DNA of 64,000 nt from Microbacteriaceae bacterium PS02068 (lineage in GTDB: Bacteria; Actinomycetota; Actinomycetes; Actinomycetales; Microbacteriaceae): contig JASCPF010000011.1 of NCBI GenBank assembly GCA_029959325.1, positions 1-64,000 of the forward strand, in the 5' to 3' direction. Position 1 is the stretch's first letter, and each line of letters begins with the position of its first letter. The position numbers and the translations under genes were made by a program. Of this stretch, positions 40,848 through 46,863 are shown in pieces. The notes beneath the pieces were generated by a model that did not search any database, was not told the origin of the DNA, and was given only the letters and a program-made list of their open reading frames with translations.

Positions 40848-40890
40848 GTCGGGATGACAGGATTTGAACCTGCGACCCCTTGACCCCCAG
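40848..40890. repeat. Left att repeat (3' part of tRNA-Pro)
   Basis: 43 bp identical to 46698-46740 except one position (T at 40880, C at 46730). It contains the T-arm and 3' acceptor strand of tRNA-Pro but no 5' half, so it is the empty att end left by integration. Confidence 0.8.
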
Positions 40891-40982
40891 GCGTCCAGAC
40901 GACTCGAATCGCGCCAAAAACCGCATAGTTCCGCGGATCAAATCATGCAGAACACTGCACGGGCTGCATGGTTTGCATGATT

Positions 40983-41002
40983 CTGGTCCCCTTTTGGTCC
41001 CC
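40983..41002. repeat. Integrase arm-type repeat, left end
   Basis: CTGGTCCCCTTTTGGTCCCC, identical to 46530-46549 at the other end of the island. Itself a tandem GGTCCCC pair. Such repeats near att sites are usually integrase arm-binding sites. The remaining sequence from the gntR terminator to the SLOG gene shows no coding potential. Confidence 0.5.
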
Positions 41003-41058
41003 CCTCGACAGCTCGGATGACGCCCGGTCACAGTCACTTTGGCGCGCCCCTCCTCGAC

Positions 41059-41898
41059 CTACGCCGACGCCGACGCTGACCGATCGGCGGCGAGTGCACG
41101 AGCAACAATCGTCGCGATGTCCGCAGGACGATGGCTTGCCTCTAGGACGCGCATGTCGGACTCGGGTAGAGCAACCCGGCGTGCAGTGGCGTTGACTTCA
41201 CGAAACTGGTCTAGCGCACGTTGTACTGCAGCGTCTTCTGCGTGGCGCGGGAACCCCTGCGGCATCCAGCTTGGTGTACTCCCTCGTGCAGCAATAGCAA
41301 GAAGGGCGGCCGCTCCTCCGTATCCCCCAGCGATGTACAACTCCGTGCCCGCTTCTAGGCTCAGTCTCGCCTCCTCGATAATGCCTGGTTCATGCCCTTT
41401 GTACCCGGCAAGTTGACCGCCGACTATTACTCGTGCATCGGTGTTCCTCGCGACAAACTTTCGCATGGCCGTGTAGGCGTCTGCCGCGTCATGCTCGTCT
41501 GCCTGTCGGCTTTTGTCTCGGAGCGAGAGTTCTTGACCAGAGTGCCCAACGAAACGGAGCGTTCCAAGAGCCCCGAGTCGCTGCATTGTCTCGTCAAGCG
41601 CCTCAGGGGATGTGTCTCGAAATTCGGGCTCGGCCAGGACGATCTCGACGGAGGCTGTTCCTTCTTTGAATCGTTGGATCTCGTCTAGGAGGACTCGCGT
41701 GTAGCCTTCTGGCTTTAGCCGGCCTCCGTATACGACTGTGCCGCCTGCCAAGAGGATCGCGCGGGTTAGTTCCGCAACCACCAAACGGCAGTGGCGTTCG
41801 GATAGGCCGAGAGTGTCGAGATCGGCGCTCTCCGACACGGAGAGCCCTACTCGTCGCCCCGCGAGCGCGTTCCGAGGAATCAGTGTTGGCTCGTTCAT
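41059..41898 (-). CDS. SLOG-like Rossmann protein of the TIR/HORMA operon
   Basis: 279 residues, no membrane segments. Nucleotide-binding pattern: GRRVGLSVSESADLDTLG (residues 14-31), AGGTVVYGGRLKPEGY (51-66), then ARVIVGGQLAGYKGHEPGIIEEA (155-177) and a Gly-rich YIAGGYGGAAALL (188-200). This fits the SLOG superfamily, which includes the domain of ThsA that senses the cyclic ADP-ribose signal made by TIR proteins. The start overlaps the dual-TIR stop (ATGA). A role as signal receptor or NAD-derived nucleotide binder is inferred; no separate effector domain (Sir2, membrane) is attached. Confidence 0.65.
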   Translation of the reverse strand: MNEPTLIPRNALAGRRVGLSVSESADLDTLGLSERHCRLVVAELTRAILLAGGTVVYGGRLKPEGYTRVLLDEIQRFKEGTASVEIVLAEPEFRDTSPEALDETMQRLGALGTLRFVGHSGQELSLRDKSRQADEHDAADAYTAMRKFVARNTDARVIVGGQLAGYKGHEPGIIEEARLSLEAGTELYIAGGYGGAAALLAIAARGSTPSWMPQGFPRHAEDAAVQRALDQFREVNATARRVALPESDMRVLEASHRPADIATIVARALAADRSASASA

Positions 41899-43103
41899 GA
41901 TGGAAGGACCCCACCTCGGGTAGCGAACGTCCGTGGGGTCAGTACGTCTGATGTGTTGAACCCGGCAAGGGTGCAGAGATCTGTGACAACCGCTCGCTCG
42001 CGTGGCCCTAGGGGCGGATCGGGATGCATTATCCACACATGACGATCTGCTTGATCGGTCGCTTGGTGAGTCATGAGCCATCGAGTGAGAGTCACAGGTT
42101 CGGGCGCGTGCACGGGAAGCCAGTCGAAGCCGTCTTCTTTGAGGTAGACCTCTTGCGCTTGCCACAAGGCCCGCTTGAGCGCTTCGTCGACGAGACGGTT
42201 GAGCGCCGTCCTGATGCCGGGCATAGGCTGCGATAAGTCGCATGGGACTGACGGGACGTGATCCATGAGGAATGATCCGCGACTCTCACCGTCGGTCAGC
42301 GCGTACATGCAGATGATGGGCATGTCGGCGGTCTTCGCTTCGAGCACCTCGCGCTGAGTCCATTCCCGACCCGCGTAAGCATCTGTACGGACCATGAGAA
42401 GTGCGGACCGGTGTGCGTTACCGTCGAGAGCAGCTTCCCAATCCTCGCCTGTCTGGATGTCTTGTGCGTCGAAGAAGTCCTCGAGTCTCGTTGTCAGGAT
42501 TGCCTCGCGCACGCGGTCGTAGATCCAGGCGCCGTCGTTGACATGCGATTCGACAAGTGAGGGATGCTTTGTGTGGCTCACGAACACCTGGATTCGCTCC
42601 TGGCCCGTGAGCCATTGAGTGATGGCCTGGCTGACTTCCCGTCCGAGAATTCCGGGATCTGTGAGCGACTCGCGCGGGAGCGGCTGAATATCTCCTACGA
42701 GTTCCCCGATCCGCGTATCGGGGATGCTGAACCGTGGCCTAATGAGTGGGAGAACGATGACATCGTCCCGTACCGAGTAGCGCGCGATATCCGCGACGTA
42801 GGACTCCCACCCCGGGTCGTTGAGGACGGCCTGGGCGAGGCTCGCTCCGATGTAGAGAACGATGACGTTGTACTGCGCGGGTGCGACTTCTGGGGCGAGT
42901 TCGGCTCCGATTCCTAGCGGCCTTGGCGCGCTATCCGGAGCCCAGGCGGCGCTCCGGCCGTAGACCTCGACCGCACCTCCGGCGAGACCAGAGAACGCTG
43001 GCGAGTGGTAGTGATTGTCAAGCTGCCTAAAGAGATCCTCACCACCGAGCTCATCGGGGTGCCAGACCACGAAGATGTCGAGGATCGGTGGGGTAACAGT
43101 CAT
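41895..43103 (-). CDS. Dual TIR-like domain protein
   Basis: 402 residues. The first TIR-like domain spans about 7-125 (ILDIFVVWHPDEL; YNVIVLYIGASLAQAVL; VIVLPLIRPRF). The second, about 170-275, is clearer: IQVFVSHTKHP, DFFDAQDIQTGEDWEAAL, and AGREWTQREVLEAK with the expected catalytic NADase Glu at 252. A C-terminal module (about 335-402, DRHVWIMHPDPPLGPRERAVVTDLC) is unassigned. Likely an NAD-cleaving or signal-making component. GAGGA precedes the ATG; 43 bp downstream of the DUF1863-type TIR gene. Confidence 0.75.
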   Translation of the reverse strand: MTVTPPILDIFVVWHPDELGGEDLFRQLDNHYHSPAFSGLAGGAVEVYGRSAAWAPDSAPRPLGIGAELAPEVAPAQYNVIVLYIGASLAQAVLNDPGWESYVADIARYSVRDDVIVLPLIRPRFSIPDTRIGELVGDIQPLPRESLTDPGILGREVSQAITQWLTGQERIQVFVSHTKHPSLVESHVNDGAWIYDRVREAILTTRLEDFFDAQDIQTGEDWEAALDGNAHRSALLMVRTDAYAGREWTQREVLEAKTADMPIICMYALTDGESRGSFLMDHVPSVPCDLSQPMPGIRTALNRLVDEALKRALWQAQEVYLKEDGFDWLPVHAPEPVTLTRWLMTHQATDQADRHVWIMHPDPPLGPRERAVVTDLCTLAGFNTSDVLTPRTFATRGGVLPS

Positions 43104-43146
43104 TGTGAAACGCTTCCTCAGTCAGACTTGTTCAGGCCAGGTGAGG

Positions 43147-43695
43147 TCATGGGCAGGTCCGGTTGTTCACCATCAGATCGCTTGTCGACCCGATGGCCGA
43201 GTCCATCTCATCTCGTCGAGTGACCGCGTCCTCGACCCATTGCGCGATGGTGCTGTCGCTCGGGGCTGGCGAGTAAAACCGTGCATACCCAACATCCAGA
43301 CCCTGGTCCTTTTGGACGTTGATTTCCAGACGCGGGGGTAGTTTCGACCAACCGTGGTCCTTAGCGCCCGGAAGCTGGACTCCGATAAGGCCTCCGCGCT
43401 GACTGTCACTGAAGTTCCGTAATGTGGCCGCGATCTCCCAATCCACATAGCGGCGGGCCCAGGTACATTGGCCGATCAAAACAACCGTGCAGGAGGTGCC
43501 AGCGATCTTGTCTTCACGGATCTTTCGCATTACATAGTCGCTGTCCCCACTCTCGATGTGCTCAGCGAAGTCGTCTCCGAACTCGCTCAGGCCCAGGCTG
43601 CGTATCTCGTTAAAGTATTGGCCGAATCGTCGTCGCCAAATGTTGGCTTCGAGTTCGTCGTCCTGGTGGAAGGACAAGAAAATGTTGCGTGCCAT
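43147..43695 (-). CDS. TIR domain protein, DUF1863/ThsB-like
   Basis: 182 residues. NIFLSFHQDDELEANIWR at the start and SDYVMRKIREDKIAGTSCTVVLIGQCTWARRYVDWEI (residues 52-88) match the MTH538/DUF1863 TIR group, to which the Thoeris sensor ThsB belongs; Glu 87 follows the conserved Trp. ThsB proteins turn NAD into cyclic ADP-ribose isomers on phage infection. AAAGG precedes the ATG, and the gene starts 14 bp after the HORMA-like gene. Signal synthesis is inferred from the family. Confidence 0.8.
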   Translation of the reverse strand: MARNIFLSFHQDDELEANIWRRRFGQYFNEIRSLGLSEFGDDFAEHIESGDSDYVMRKIREDKIAGTSCTVVLIGQCTWARRYVDWEIAATLRNFSDSQRGGLIGVQLPGAKDHGWSKLPPRLEINVQKDQGLDVGYARFYSPAPSDSTIAQWVEDAVTRRDEMDSAIGSTSDLMVNNRTCP

Positions 43696-43709
43696 GGTGG
43701 CGCCTTTCT

Positions 43710-44231
43710 CTATAGCGCGCTGCGCTCGGCGAGTCCGACCTCGCCGAGATCCTGCAATCGCAGTGTTGTCTCGCTGGGCGTCTTCGACCAGTCGGGCGGA
43801 TGGCTGCCGTAACTGACTCCGACTTTCGGGCAGAGCTGGCTGTGCCGGGTGGGGTCGCGAATGATCGCGGGCGTGAAGCGTACCCAGTAGTTCGGAGTCA
43901 GGCCTTCGGATCGGGCTCGTGCAGCAAAGCGAGCCCCAAGGATTGAGGCCTCGGGCGACGCAGTTCCTTCCCACCCTGGCAGGTCTGTGGAGAAGTCGAG
44001 CGAGGCGTTGTCGGAGTGCACCGACCAATTGATACGAGCTTCCACTTCATACACTCGCTTGCCATCTCGCCTCAGATAGAGGCCAATCGACGTGAGCCAC
44101 CTCTGATCGACGCCGTAGCAGACCTTGGCGGTCGCGTCCTTATCGATGCCTGCCGCAGTGAAGAGCACATCAACTTGATCGACTAGCGCCTGAGCACGGG
44201 TATAGGCGTACGAATATGTGTAGGTGCTCAT
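43710..44231 (-). CDS. Bacterial HORMA-like protein (HORMA-1 type)
   Basis: 173-residue soluble protein. The start STYTYSYAYTRAQALVDQVD, the AGIDKDATAKV segment, a strand pair RWLTSIGLYLRRDGKRVYEVEARINW and a C-terminal segment ending TTLRLQDLGEVGLAERS resemble, by recall, the small HORMA proteins of type III CBASS, which clasp peptides with a C-terminal safety belt and are opened by an AAA+ remodeller. The AAA+ gene is 6 bp upstream, supporting the call. TAGGA lies 5 nt from the ATG. Fold assignment needs a profile or structure check. Confidence 0.6.
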   Translation of the reverse strand: MSTYTYSYAYTRAQALVDQVDVLFTAAGIDKDATAKVCYGVDQRWLTSIGLYLRRDGKRVYEVEARINWSVHSDNASLDFSTDLPGWEGTASPEASILGARFAARARSEGLTPNYWVRFTPAIIRDPTRHSQLCPKVGVSYGSHPPDWSKTPSETTLRLQDLGEVGLAERSAL

Positions 44232-44237
44232 GTTTTC

Positions 44238-45104
44238 CTAGCTCCCCACGTACGATTGAGTTGCAATCGAACGCTCATGCCAGATTCCGAGCGCCAGCCC
44301 CTGAATCTCATCTGCAGAGAGCGAACCCCCCGTTAGCTTGCGCTCAAACTCCACGCGAGCGGAGCTCCGCGGTTGGATCAATGCGACGAGTGACCCTGCC
44401 GCTCGTCGCACCTCATCGTCCGATGCGCGGGCAAGTATCTCCACGACGAGGTCAGAGAAGAACGCCACTGGGGCGTCGGGAAGCGCGCCGACGAGCGACT
44501 CAAGCTCCGGTCGCGTGAGAACCCCGCCGAGGATGCCTGTCATGATTTCCAGCCTCTCCGCCTCGGTCGGCAGCCAAGGGAATGCACGCATCCGACCTGG
44601 CCTTCGGAGCGGCGGGTATACCTTCGACAGATCGTTTCCCGTGAGCACAACGGGGACCCGGCGGAGCTTTCTATCGCCAGCGCGAGTTGGGCTGTCCGCC
44701 AGATGCATGAGTTGAGCGAGCACCTGCTGGTGATTGACTGTGGTCGTACTCTGCGCCCACTCCCCGACCGTCGTATCGAAGTCGTCCACGACGAGCACGG
44801 TCGGCGTGCCCTCGTCTATACGATGCCCTGCGTTCTCATACGTGTCGAGAACAAGCTTCCCCGGCGTGCCGGCGCGGTCACTCTCGAGGTCCGCCGCATT
44901 AATTGATATGGGTAGCACACCACCACGTTCGAGATGCTTGCGTAGCTGAAAACTCTTGCCGTCACCCGGCCGCCCGAAGATGCCCAAAACAAGAGGCCAT
45001 GCGTCGATGTCTGCGAAGTTGAAGACGAGGTGTTGATTGACAGCGTGCGCGAACCGATCCGGGATGACGGGCTCCAGGTGCGGTGCTGAATGAGCGGAAG
45101 TCAT
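44238..45104 (-). CDS. AAA+ ATPase with Rubisco-activase-like core
   Basis: 288 residues. Walker A GRPGDGKS (44-51), Walker B VLVVDDFD (103-110), sensor 1 LTGND (154-158), arginine-finger region RRPGRMRAF. The run ADLESDRAGTPGKL, VNHQQVLAQLMHLADSPT, RVPVVLTGNDLSKVYPPLRR and PWLPTEAER follows Rubisco activase almost residue by residue, unlike classical Pch2/TRIP13. There is no Rubisco in the window. Next to a HORMA-like gene, it probably remodels that protein. The 216 bp before it should hold the operon promoter; no clear operator was seen. Confidence 0.75.
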   Translation of the reverse strand: MTSAHSAPHLEPVIPDRFAHAVNQHLVFNFADIDAWPLVLGIFGRPGDGKSFQLRKHLERGGVLPISINAADLESDRAGTPGKLVLDTYENAGHRIDEGTPTVLVVDDFDTTVGEWAQSTTTVNHQQVLAQLMHLADSPTRAGDRKLRRVPVVLTGNDLSKVYPPLRRPGRMRAFPWLPTEAERLEIMTGILGGVLTRPELESLVGALPDAPVAFFSDLVVEILARASDDEVRRAAGSLVALIQPRSSARVEFERKLTGGSLSADEIQGLALGIWHERSIATQSYVGS

Positions 45105-45320
45105 AGGTAGATCAGACCACGAGCCACAGACATCGCCCCGCCTGGACACGCCAACATCGAGCCCGGCTGCGGGGTAAGAACCAAGGTGATCTCGCATCAG
45201 GAACGTCCGATTTCGAGCGCGCGTCCTCCGTCTTCGACCCCGCGGCCTTTGCGACACCGCACGTCAACCACCTTGCGGAGCCTGCGGTGTCTTCGACGAA
45301 TAGGACTTACCCGTTGTCGG

Positions 45321-46296
45321 TCATACAGCTACCGCAGCGTCGGATTCTGACACTCGGAGATCGCCCGAGGAAACTTCGTGAGCCTGGTCGCGATCGGGTG
45401 CTGACCCAGCGGTTTCCCCACTCGATCGGAGCGCGACGAGGGCTAGACCAACTTTGGCCGCGACATCCACGGCGACCGCGTTCCCAATGACTCCCATGAC
45501 ACGGCTGCGTATGCCGGGGAACTCGTAGTCTTGCGGGAAACCCTGCACGAGGGCGGCCTCGCGGATGCTGAAGTAGCGGACGGACCCGTCGAGCTCACGC
45601 AGCATCCCCTCACCCCCCCGCTACACCGTGGACGCCGGCCTTGATGGTCTTGCTCGGCATGTCTAGCGGGCTGCCGTTGTGCTTCGCGTAGGTTCGCGCA
45701 CCGGGAATAGCGATGTGATTGGGCCAGCCATCGGAGGCGACTTCTACAGCGGGCTCGGGAACGTTGAGCAAGAGATCGCGAAGGGTTCTCCACGGCAGCC
45801 TGTCCGTCGGTGGCCCGGTCTTCTTGATTCGTTCGATCTGCGCGCGAAGTCGTTCGGGAGTCTCGGCGGGTTTCGTCAATCCGTGGCGTTCCCAATATGT
45901 CCCGGTCACCCACTGTTGGTGGAGCAGCAGATCCCGGCTGTGCGTCTTCGCCACGCCAGTCCATGAGCCGGAGCCCGCAAGATCGGCGCGAATCGCGATC
46001 AGGAAAATACGCCTGCGGCTCTGGGCGACTCCTACATCTGCGGCATCGATCTCCTCCTGGTACACACGGTAGAGATCCTCGATGACGCTCGCTCGGATTC
46101 TCCTGTGGTGTTCGTTCCAGAGTTCATCGTCCTTGGGGGCGATCGTGGGGCGGCGGAGCTGGTCGCGCACGTAGTCGAGGTAGGGGGCAAACGAGGGGCG
46201 GGTCAAGCCCGGGACGTTCTCAAATACGACGTACTCCGGCATGAGTTGTCGCACGATGTCGAGCGCCGCAGGAAACATGTTCCTGTCGTCTGAGTG
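45321..46296 (-). pseudogene. Cytosine-5 DNA methyltransferase, 5'-truncated and frameshifted
   Basis: The surviving part starts at SDDRNMFPAALDIV, keeps motif IV VFENVPGL, QSRRRIFLIAIR, a target-recognition region and the C-terminal motifs (SKTIKAGVHGV; FSIREAALVQGFPQDYEFPG; GVIGNAVAVD). The AdoMet-binding N-terminus and PPCQ loop are missing: upstream sequence switches to the integrase remnant. A run of seven Gs near 45610 shifts the frame (VAGG then stop); six Gs would restore VAGGEGMLREL. Dead as it stands because of the truncation. Confidence 0.8.
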
Positions 46297-46491
46297 ATGG
46301 CCGACGCCGGCGTCCCCCTGCACGTCCTCCAGGAGATCCTCGGGCACGCGTCCATGGAGACCACCCGCGGCTACCTCCACCCCGACGACCGGCACCTCGC
46401 CTCCGCCGCCGAGCAAACCAGCGCATTCCTCTCCCCCTCCGGACAACGCCGCCACGCACGCCAGAACACCCCGCCCACCCGGCGCCTGTGA
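46294..46491 (+). pseudogene. Tyrosine integrase, C-terminal remnant
   Basis: About 65 residues remain: DAGVPLHVLQEILGHASMETTRGYLHPDDRH holds the LGH box and the nucleophilic Tyr of phage-type integrases. The catalytic Arg, the HxxR and the whole N-terminus are absent, replaced by methyltransferase sequence on the other strand. It lies next to the right att site, where the element's own integrase is expected. Confidence 0.8.
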
Positions 46492-46529
46492 TGCCGAATC
46501 CGCGGCCCCGAAGCCTGCCCGGAAGCGCT

Positions 46530-46634
46530 CTGGTCCCCTTTTGGTCCCCTTATCCACAGGCCCGGGCGCACCACCGGTCCCGTTGTCCACAGGCCGGCCA
46601 TGTGCCCGGGCCCGAGGGGACCAGAAGGGGACCA
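46530..46634. repeat. Right-end repeats: integrase arm sites and two DnaA-box-like sequences
   Basis: CTGGTCCCCTTTTGGTCCCC (46530-46549) equals the left-end copy, and an inverted related copy GGGGACCAGAAGGGGACCA lies at 46616-46634. Between them are TTATCCACA (46550-46558) and TTGTCCACA (46583-46591), each followed by GGCC, 33 bp apart; these match E. coli- and Streptomyces-type DnaA boxes respectively. Confidence 0.5.
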
Positions 46635-46658
46635 ACGAAAACCGCCCGCAGACACAAC

Positions 46659-46695
46659 AAAGCCCTGACGAAAATTGATTCTCATCAGGGCTTTT
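46659..46695 (-). terminator. Terminator downstream of tRNA-Pro
   Basis: AAAGCCCTGA and TCAGGGCTTT form a 10-bp stem around a 16-nt loop that can partly pair, 4 nt after the tRNA 3' end on the minus strand and ending in a T-run. Same family as the hairpins at 34157 and 40808. Confidence 0.7.
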
Positions 46696-46697
46696 CT

Positions 46698-46740
46698 GTC
46701 GGGATGACAGGATTTGAACCTGCGACCCCCTGACCCCCAG
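46698..46740. repeat. Right att repeat, inside tRNA-Pro
   Basis: 43-bp partner of 40848-40890, covering the anticodon-loop edge, variable loop, T-arm and acceptor 3' strand. Because the element carries this piece, the tRNA gene stays complete after insertion. Confidence 0.8.
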
Positions 46741-46772
46741 TCAGGTGCGCTACCAAGCTGCGCCACATCCCG
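46699..46772 (-). tRNA. tRNA-Pro (anticodon GGG)
   Basis: 74-nt cloverleaf on the minus strand: acceptor CGGGATG/CATCCCG, D-arm GCGC/GCGC, anticodon stem CCTGA/TCAGG with loop CTGGGGG, T-arm GCAGG-TTCAAAT-CCTGT, discriminator A. CCA is not encoded. Intact, although it is the integration target of the island. Confidence 0.95.
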
Positions 46773-46824: not shown

Positions 46825-46863
46825 CCCCCAGTCAGGTGCGCTACCAAGCTGCGCCACATCCCG
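46825..46863 (-). pseudogene. Duplicate 5' half of tRNA-Pro
   Basis: 39 bp identical to 46734-46772: acceptor 5' strand, D-arm and anticodon stem up to the GGGGG, ending exactly within the att core. It lacks the 3' half, so it cannot make a tRNA. It lies 52 bp upstream of the intact gene. Confidence 0.85.

Follow-up and report, generated by a model that had tools for sequence, protein, structure and literature searches.

What does an ATPase resembling Rubisco activase (Rca) do in an operon that also encodes a predicted HORMA-fold protein and two TIR proteins? The gene that raises this question lies at positions 44238..45104 of the window, by which we mean the whole 64,000-nucleotide stretch of contig JASCPF010000011.1 from Microbacteriaceae bacterium PS02068. 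Its reading frame, for which the first-pass annotation gave no strand, runs on the minus strand, from an ATG at 45104 to a stop at 44240-44238 (288 codons, 288 aa); the plus-strand frame at 44238-45104, the one frame looked at on that strand, is interrupted by stops. We placed the protein in the Rca clade of AAA+ ATPases on the basis of phmmer searches of the PDB, trees with AU tests and a predicted structure, and then followed its partner genes and its relatives in two phyla.

Clade and core of the AAA+ motor

Exploring the minus-strand translation, we found all of the Rca motifs quoted in the first-pass annotation (DLESDRAGTPGKL, TVNHQQ, LMHLADSPT, RVPVVLTGND and YPPLRRPGRM). Its claim of an Rca-like core was borne out by phmmer against the PDB, in which the best matches were tobacco Rca (3t15, 3.9e-36), Arabidopsis Rca (4w5w, 7.1e-36) and Nostoc Rca (6z1d, 2.6e-34), while the first non-Rca family was AFG2 (2.4e-7) and no Pch2/TRIP13 entry stood among the best 60 of 147 matches. 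A profile built from the seven members of the system (the window's and the six actinobacterial relatives described below) matched Rca at 5.4e-44 to 2.3e-43 and the next family at 3.9e-11. Against the Rca segments of tobacco and Nostoc, the window AAA+ was 40% identical in each case; in a whole-length alignment, its identity to 29 cyanobacterial Rca rows was 29-35%.

For the trees, we combined 19 cyanobacterial Rca rows (every fourth of 73 loci) and two plant ones with six TRIP13-like plasmid AAA (picked from 254 matching records), human and worm TRIP13, CbbX, EccA1 and, from actinobacterial genomes, 12 other AAA. A quick tree with 50 rows joined the system and Rca at a support of 100 and separated TRIP13 at 100; for this tree and for later ones the program warned of long branches meeting. 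Removal of six long-branched rows (two other AAA, CbbX, EccA1 and the two TRIP13 of loci L131 and L136) left 44 rows for the careful tree, in which the system grouped with Rca at 100/100, and four bacterial and two animal TRIP13 formed a clade of their own at 99/100. This is the reverse of the tree that the first-pass annotation had named as a refutation, in which the protein would lie firmly inside bacterial TRIP13 and Rca outside. Forcing the system together with TRIP13 was 48.9 log units worse and was rejected (p-AU 0.00076), in agreement with the annotation's statement that the protein does not follow the Pch2/TRIP13 pattern; forcing it together with the other AAA was also rejected (p-AU 0.0008). 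An Rca HMM scored 140-157 bits in all seven members and an HMM of other AAA 48-59 bits; a TRIP13 HMM reached at most 15.2 bits in three members and did not match the other four, and a CbbX HMM matched none of the seven. The PADLOC TRIP13 models did not match the window AAA at E up to 0.1 and gave 5.5e-141 and 2.7e-106 with two control TRIP13 proteins. The structure predicted for the AAA from an input of 36 rows, 29 of them Rca, had a pLDDT of 85.6 and resembled Rca most closely (6z1d, 4w5w, 6z1f and 3t15 at Z 25.8, 23.3, 23.1 and 22.1, respectively), followed by p97 at Z 16.7; Foldseek was concordant. TRIP13 was absent among the best 50 structural matches, an absence that carries no weight against it. 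Together, the data indicate that the window AAA belongs with the green-type Rca clade and that its assignment to TRIP13 is rejected.

Within the AAA core, all seven members share Walker A (GRPGDGKS) and the stretch PPLRRPGR without variation. Walker B reads DD in the members, ND in Rca and DE in TRIP13 and CbbX. According to a table in one review (PMC5437159), the tobacco Rca substitutions A144V in pore loop 1 and Y188A in pore loop 2 leave the ATPase functional and Rca inactive. The numbering offset used from tobacco Rca to the window AAA was 84; the equivalent of A144 is A78, which lies in a pore-loop-1 stretch of Rca type and is invariant in all seven members, while the position of Y188 falls in an alignment gap in all seven. 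With the pore-loop-1 alanine kept and the pore-loop-2 tyrosine absent, the motor is thus of Rca type with a pore that is not identical to that of Rca. The Rca helical domain (PF21228) was matched by none of the seven members at E up to 1; the three cyanobacterial HORMA-paired AAA described below scored 42.6, 33.3 and 22.8 bits with this model (cut-off 27).

The predicted HORMA partner and the operon on its island

Directly after the AAA, on the same strand, lies a gene for a protein of 173 aa (43710..44231), its ATG 6 bp past the AAA stop. The protein has no sequence match in Pfam, PADLOC, NCBIfam or the PDB. Its AlphaFold2 model, made from seven sequences, reached a pLDDT of 85.5 and a pTM of 0.79, and the best Foldseek match of the model was HORMA2 of P. 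aeruginosa (6.4e-5). The VIA structural search gave HORMA2 6p8r at Z 10.9 (rmsd 5.6, 147 residues aligned) and 6p8s at Z 10.7 (rmsd 3.2, 137 aligned), and the matches listed for the model are HORMA-domain proteins by title. The HORMA neighbour assumed in the first-pass annotation is therefore borne out at the level of the predicted fold. Pfam's bacHORMA families matched none of the seven HORMA members at E up to 10; a HORMA protein of CBASS named as such by PADLOC (L133:4810-5277) likewise has no Pfam HORMA match, and a scan of 198 genomes with bacHORMA_1 (PF18138) gave no match anywhere, 14 controls included, and so carries no information. Comparison by hhalign of the HORMA set with sets of small CBASS genes was uninformative: against the second small genes it reached an E of 0.0068 in 35 columns, and the two CBASS sets miss each other too. 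Model confidence drops over the first ten HORMA residues (mean 61), and residues 4-11 are predicted to form a strand. By eye, Ser, Thr and Tyr abound in the HORMA N-termini of both phyla, which lead into a motif resembling T-R or T-K-x-R, less so at locus L156; such an N-terminus fits what might be expected of a site for the motor to grip.

Downstream of HORMA, the minus strand continues with three genes. A ThsB-type TIR protein of 182 aa, the candidate signal maker, begins 14 bp after HORMA (43147..43695) and matches Pfam ThsB_TIR (4.4e-17, 62.8 bits; cut-off 21.2) and PADLOC ThsB models (best 7.1e-13). Next comes a second TIR protein of 402 aa, the candidate effector (41895..43103), with a Pfam TIR_2 match of 2.8e-5 (25 bits, under the cut-off of 28) and a weak match to ThcB4 of type III Thoeris (4.3e-5, 22.5 bits; cut-off 220). 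The last is a SLOG protein of 279 aa, the candidate nucleotide sensor (41059..41898; Pfam LD_cluster2, SLOG cluster2, 4.6e-49), whose start overlaps the second TIR stop by 4 bp. The gaps from AAA through HORMA, ThsB and second TIR to SLOG are thus 6, 14, 43 and -4 bp. We also considered the conserved ThsB tail (GSTSDLMVN) as a closure peptide for HORMA and dropped it; relatives at L138 and L140, which have no HORMA, carry tails of similar length (by eye).

The operon sits on an island with a G+C of 0.614, compared with 0.669 and 0.703 in its flanks (40848-46772). One end is a minus-strand tRNA-Pro gene (anticodon ggg; 46698..46772, found by ARAGORN) and the other an exact 32-bp copy of the tRNA-Pro 3' end (40848..40879, minus strand), the probable attachment site that closes the island, the 32 bp being common to both ends. 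Just outside the intact tRNA gene, 46825-46863 is an exact 39-bp copy of the 5' part of tRNA-Pro. Between AAA and tRNA lie a broken cytosine-C5 DNA methyltransferase on the minus strand (45321..46296), which occupies two frames, lacks its start and matches Pfam DNA_methylase in both pieces when scanned apart, PADLOC MTase_II covering residues 114-341 of the upstream piece, and a plus-strand remnant of a tyrosine recombinase C-terminus (LHVLQEILGHASMETTRGYLH; 46294..46491), recognised by eye in translation.

Relatives in two phyla and a possible origin of Rca

Of 536 stretches in a scan of GTDB contigs, 352 are relatives; by title, 73 of the 79 loci listed are cyanobacterial and the other six actinobacterial, so that the number of members is a lower bound. 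Among those listed, the six actinobacterial loci belong to Leifsonia, another Microbacteriaceae, Mycobacterium deserti, Rhodococcus HNM0563 and two Actinomycetes MAGs. Counting the window, the order AAA-HORMA-ThsB is kept in all seven actinobacterial loci; a second TIR gene was found by tblastn in five of them and SLOG cluster2 in six. At L055, the second TIR and SLOG genes precede AAA rather than follow ThsB, at L053 the second TIR is split over two frames, at L056 the contig start falls inside the SLOG gene, and at L054 (Mycobacterium deserti) no second TIR or SLOG cluster2 match was detected within 16.6 kb. Mean column identity over the seven loci was highest for ThsB (81%), with 75% for AAA and 74% for HORMA. 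The 32-bp tRNA-Pro site recurs among the six relatives at the Leifsonia locus only, past the SLOG gene, with one mismatch in 31. Other genes surround some of the relatives: past AAA-HORMA-ThsB of Mycobacterium deserti (L054:10062-15175) we observed an LSDAT-type SLOG, a patatin phospholipase, a TPR-S protein and a TIR-like frame (the last by eye), L057 adjoins a large helicase with an REase_MTES_1575 domain, and L055 adjoins KAP NTPase and QueC genes.

A wider search of 299 genomes in the window's family gave 15 matches, namely its own genome and 14 weak ones (best 9.7e-8). Across the phylum, 396 genomes gave 39, of which 38 are weak (best 3.3e-6) and the remaining one is the window's own, and around the Rhodococcus member only the member itself matched among 301. 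Plasmids and phages searched with the window AAA gave no match, nor did plasmids searched with the HORMA of L055 or with the L145 and L151 pairs. Three of six scans of viral contigs were without match, and the other three gave one locus, L023, a 66-residue match in a phage-like frame that shares little beyond GDGKSFQ and was discarded by eye. HORMA matches in three actinobacteria (E 2.9e-4 to 6.2e-4) were discarded as well, given that two hold stops and two overlap unrelated genes; for the third actinobacterial candidate (L022), a repeat search gave no HORMA match.

The pairing of AAA with HORMA extends to cyanobacteria, beyond the view of the first-pass annotation. An AAA profile search of 194 cyanobacterial genomes gave a match at 1e-10 in 41, one of which (G1150) has two: a 415-codon frame that we took as Rca and a 278-aa paralogue that is followed by a 170-aa gene. 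With this 170-aa partner as query, 2 genomes of 118 and 3 of 84 were found to have it, the query genomes counted. Three loci (L145, L151 and L155) carry an Rca-like AAA outside the Rca clade with a HORMA homologue directly after it, and the genome of L145 also holds a true Rca; at L156, where 12 kb were covered, a fourth copy of the HORMA homologue stands without an Rca-like AAA match. Homology of the cyanobacterial partners to the window HORMA became significant with sampling, from an E of 0.42 with the single L145 partner to 3.7e-6 with two sequences and 8.2e-9 with four, the score of the last being 58.3 and the null maximum 24.6 in 200 column shuffles. When the seven-HORMA profile was run over 2,421 open frames, the L151 partner came first after the profile's own members (2.4e-6) and the L145 partner was not significant (E 2.5); with the reverse profile of cyanobacterial partners, five of the six non-window actinobacterial HORMA took the places right behind the profile's own members (3.1e-4 to 0.46), the sixth being twelfth. 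No match to the ThsB, second TIR or SLOG of the window system was found at the three cyanobacterial loci (5.8, 15 and 10.3 kb).

At L151:6312-9927, the Rca-like AAA and the HORMA homologue are preceded by an HTH gene and a PIN-like gene (below cut-off) and followed by a gene whose product has, by eye, a hydrophobic N-terminus, all in a row; HTH and PIN genes also lie upstream at L131, a type III CBASS locus. L155:57-10146 holds a double AAA of CbbX/SpoVK look, an HSP70-like and a radical-SAM-like gene, the Rca-like AAA and the HORMA homologue, with a kinase carrying GUN4 domains past the latter on the other strand; these neighbours (HSP70, radical-SAM, kinase) do not look defence-like. At L156:1517-3124, the HORMA homologue is divergent from a STAND/NACHT-like NTPase.

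To place the cyanobacterial HORMA-paired motors, we used a careful tree of 47 rows; it was without TRIP13 or CbbX rows and had six of the 12 other AAA as outgroup. The three motors joined Rca at 100/100 outside the Rca clade, the support of the Rca clade being 100/99 and that of the cyanobacterial HORMA-paired clade 97/88, and the actinobacterial motors lay further out. Since the cyanobacterial HORMA-paired motors group with Rca, Rca falls among HORMA-paired motors in the best tree, which, read literally, makes HORMA pairing the older state and Rubisco activation the derived one. In the quick tree the actinobacterial members came out as a single clade (support 65), and the careful trees arranged them stepwise below Rca; their monophyly was not rejected (p 0.57). 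We put forward, tentatively, that the ancestor of green-type Rca, which keeps Rubisco active in cyanobacteria and plants, might have been a motor that remodelled HORMA proteins in a bacterial signalling or immune operon, with the actinobacterial and cyanobacterial HORMA-paired AAA as its surviving side branches. The opposite course, in which the HORMA-paired motors are derived from Rca or form its sister clade, is to us an equally tentative proposal. A constraint that makes all HORMA-paired motors one clade, sister to Rca, was not rejected (p-AU 0.173), and the outgroup is attached by a very long branch. Two reviews also let Rca originate in cyanobacteria (PMC9951593) or in an ancient cyanobacterium, out of a general chaperone that belonged to the classical AAA clade (PMC5437159). 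This course is, however, at odds with the 100/100 grouping of cyanobacterial HORMA-paired motors with Rca to the exclusion of the actinobacterial ones. It concerns origin only and is compatible with the motor working a HORMA switch.

A proposed working of the operon, its rivals and known systems

The clade of the AAA, the gene order and the conservation of that order were computed, and so was the HORMA fold at the level of a model. From these we infer, with rather more confidence than doubt, that an Rca-clade motor works a HORMA switch that gates TIR signalling in a mobile, probably anti-phage operon. An infection cue would let the HORMA protein close and then bind or activate the ThsB-type TIR enzyme, which would turn NAD+ into a nucleotide signal; the SLOG protein would sense this signal and switch on the second TIR as an NAD+-depleting effector. 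The AAA+ hexamer would grip HORMA, perhaps at its Ser/Thr/Tyr-rich N-terminus, and pull it open, whereby the system would be held off and reset. That the AAA opens or resets HORMA, and that HORMA gates ThsB, appears most likely by analogy with TRIP13, which remodels HORMA proteins (PMC4439613), and with Rca, which pulls the RbcL N-terminus through its pore (PMC9951593). Weighing against this working are the pore-loop-2 tyrosine missing from all seven members, the reliance of the HORMA assignment on a model from seven sequences that no Pfam HORMA family supports, the HORMA homologue of L156 with no Rca-like AAA nearby, the L155 neighbours unlike defence genes, and L054 with neither second TIR nor SLOG cluster2 match.

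The constancy of ThsB admits another substrate. In all seven actinobacterial loci the linkage of AAA to ThsB is as constant as that to HORMA, and ThsB is the most conserved of the three (81% vs 75% and 74%), as might be expected if TIR proteins or a phage protein were the substrate of the AAA and HORMA were only an adaptor or sensor recruiting the motor, which would then take TIR assemblies apart or feed a phage protein to the sensor. We regard this as unlikely, though worth keeping in mind, given that the three cyanobacterial loci retain the AAA/HORMA pair without matches to the system's ThsB, second TIR or SLOG, indicating that HORMA is the more constant partner. Far less probable are two readings of the motor itself. 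One takes it for a divergent form of the bacterial TRIP13 found in type III CBASS loci, which stands at the same position of its operon with the same kind of partner; but the tree refutes this within the limits of the model (p-AU 0.00076), the TRIP13 HMM gave at most 15.2 bits and the PADLOC TRIP13 models were unmatched, so that we give it hardly any credence. A stray Rubisco activase acting on Rubisco, to which the 40% identity to Rca segments might point, is just as improbable: the Rubisco large subunit (PF00016) was not found in six of the seven member assemblies, namely the window's and five others, some of them MAGs, in which absence is not proof, and none of the seven members matched PF21228. 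The search detected a Nostoc control, and the assembly of L056 gave a partial PF00016 match on another contig.

A HORMA switch worked by an Rca-clade motor and gating TIR signalling would bear on several families. The findings suggest that a second AAA clade, distant from TRIP13, may serve HORMA proteins, that a HORMA/motor module can couple not just to cyclic-nucleotide synthesis but also to TIR signalling, and that the presence of an Rca-type motor in an immune-type cluster points to a new role, perhaps to the origin, of this motor family. Green-type Rca gains close kin with a different partner, and the question of its origin becomes testable. In a literature search that mostly lacked subscription papers, we found neither a Rubisco activase paired with HORMA, TIR or anti-phage function nor a paper on type III Thoeris.

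Comparison with known systems shows the operon to share parts with three of them. With green-type Rca it shares the AAA+ core, at the 40% identity given above, the pore-loop-1 alanine (tobacco A144) and the predicted fold (Z 22.1-25.8), and it differs in having a HORMA partner, with no Rubisco found in six of seven host assemblies, in the absence of the pore-loop-2 tyrosine and in a helical domain below Pfam detection. With type III CBASS (TRIP13-HORMA-CD-NTase-effector) it shares the gene order of motor, HORMA, signal maker and effector, whereas the window motor is of the Rca clade rather than TRIP13 and a TIR stands where CBASS has its CD-NTase; none of the five operon proteins matches CD-NTase models. 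Five of the six TRIP13-like plasmid loci read AAA, one or two small genes, a CBASS cyclase and a next gene, no cyclase is annotated at the sixth (L136, Haloarcula), and PADLOC, run on two AAA and three small genes from L131 and L133, named the former TRIP13 and the latter HORMA.

With Thoeris, which joins a ThsB TIR to a SLOG-bearing effector, the operon shares the ThsB-type TIR and, weakly, the match of its second TIR to ThcB4 (NCBIfam type III model), whereas it carries the extra AAA and HORMA genes and no ThsA match was found among its proteins. The window SLOG did not match ThcA at E up to 1; a related SLOG of Klebsiella matches ThcA weakly, far under the cut-off. Sets of TIR, TIR and SLOG without an AAA or HORMA match in 10-13 kb were found on plasmids of R. 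jostii, Klebsiella and Mesorhizobium. In the R. jostii set (L137:4215-6855), the small TIR was recognised by eye, and the second TIR and SLOG are 59% and 45% identical to those of the window; the small TIRs of the Klebsiella (L138:2966-5804) and Mesorhizobium (L140:3272-5891) sets match PADLOC ThsB, and these two sets are possibly an unlabelled Thoeris-like type. TIR, TIR and SLOG thus occur together without AAA and HORMA, a pair that has the look of a control module added to them.
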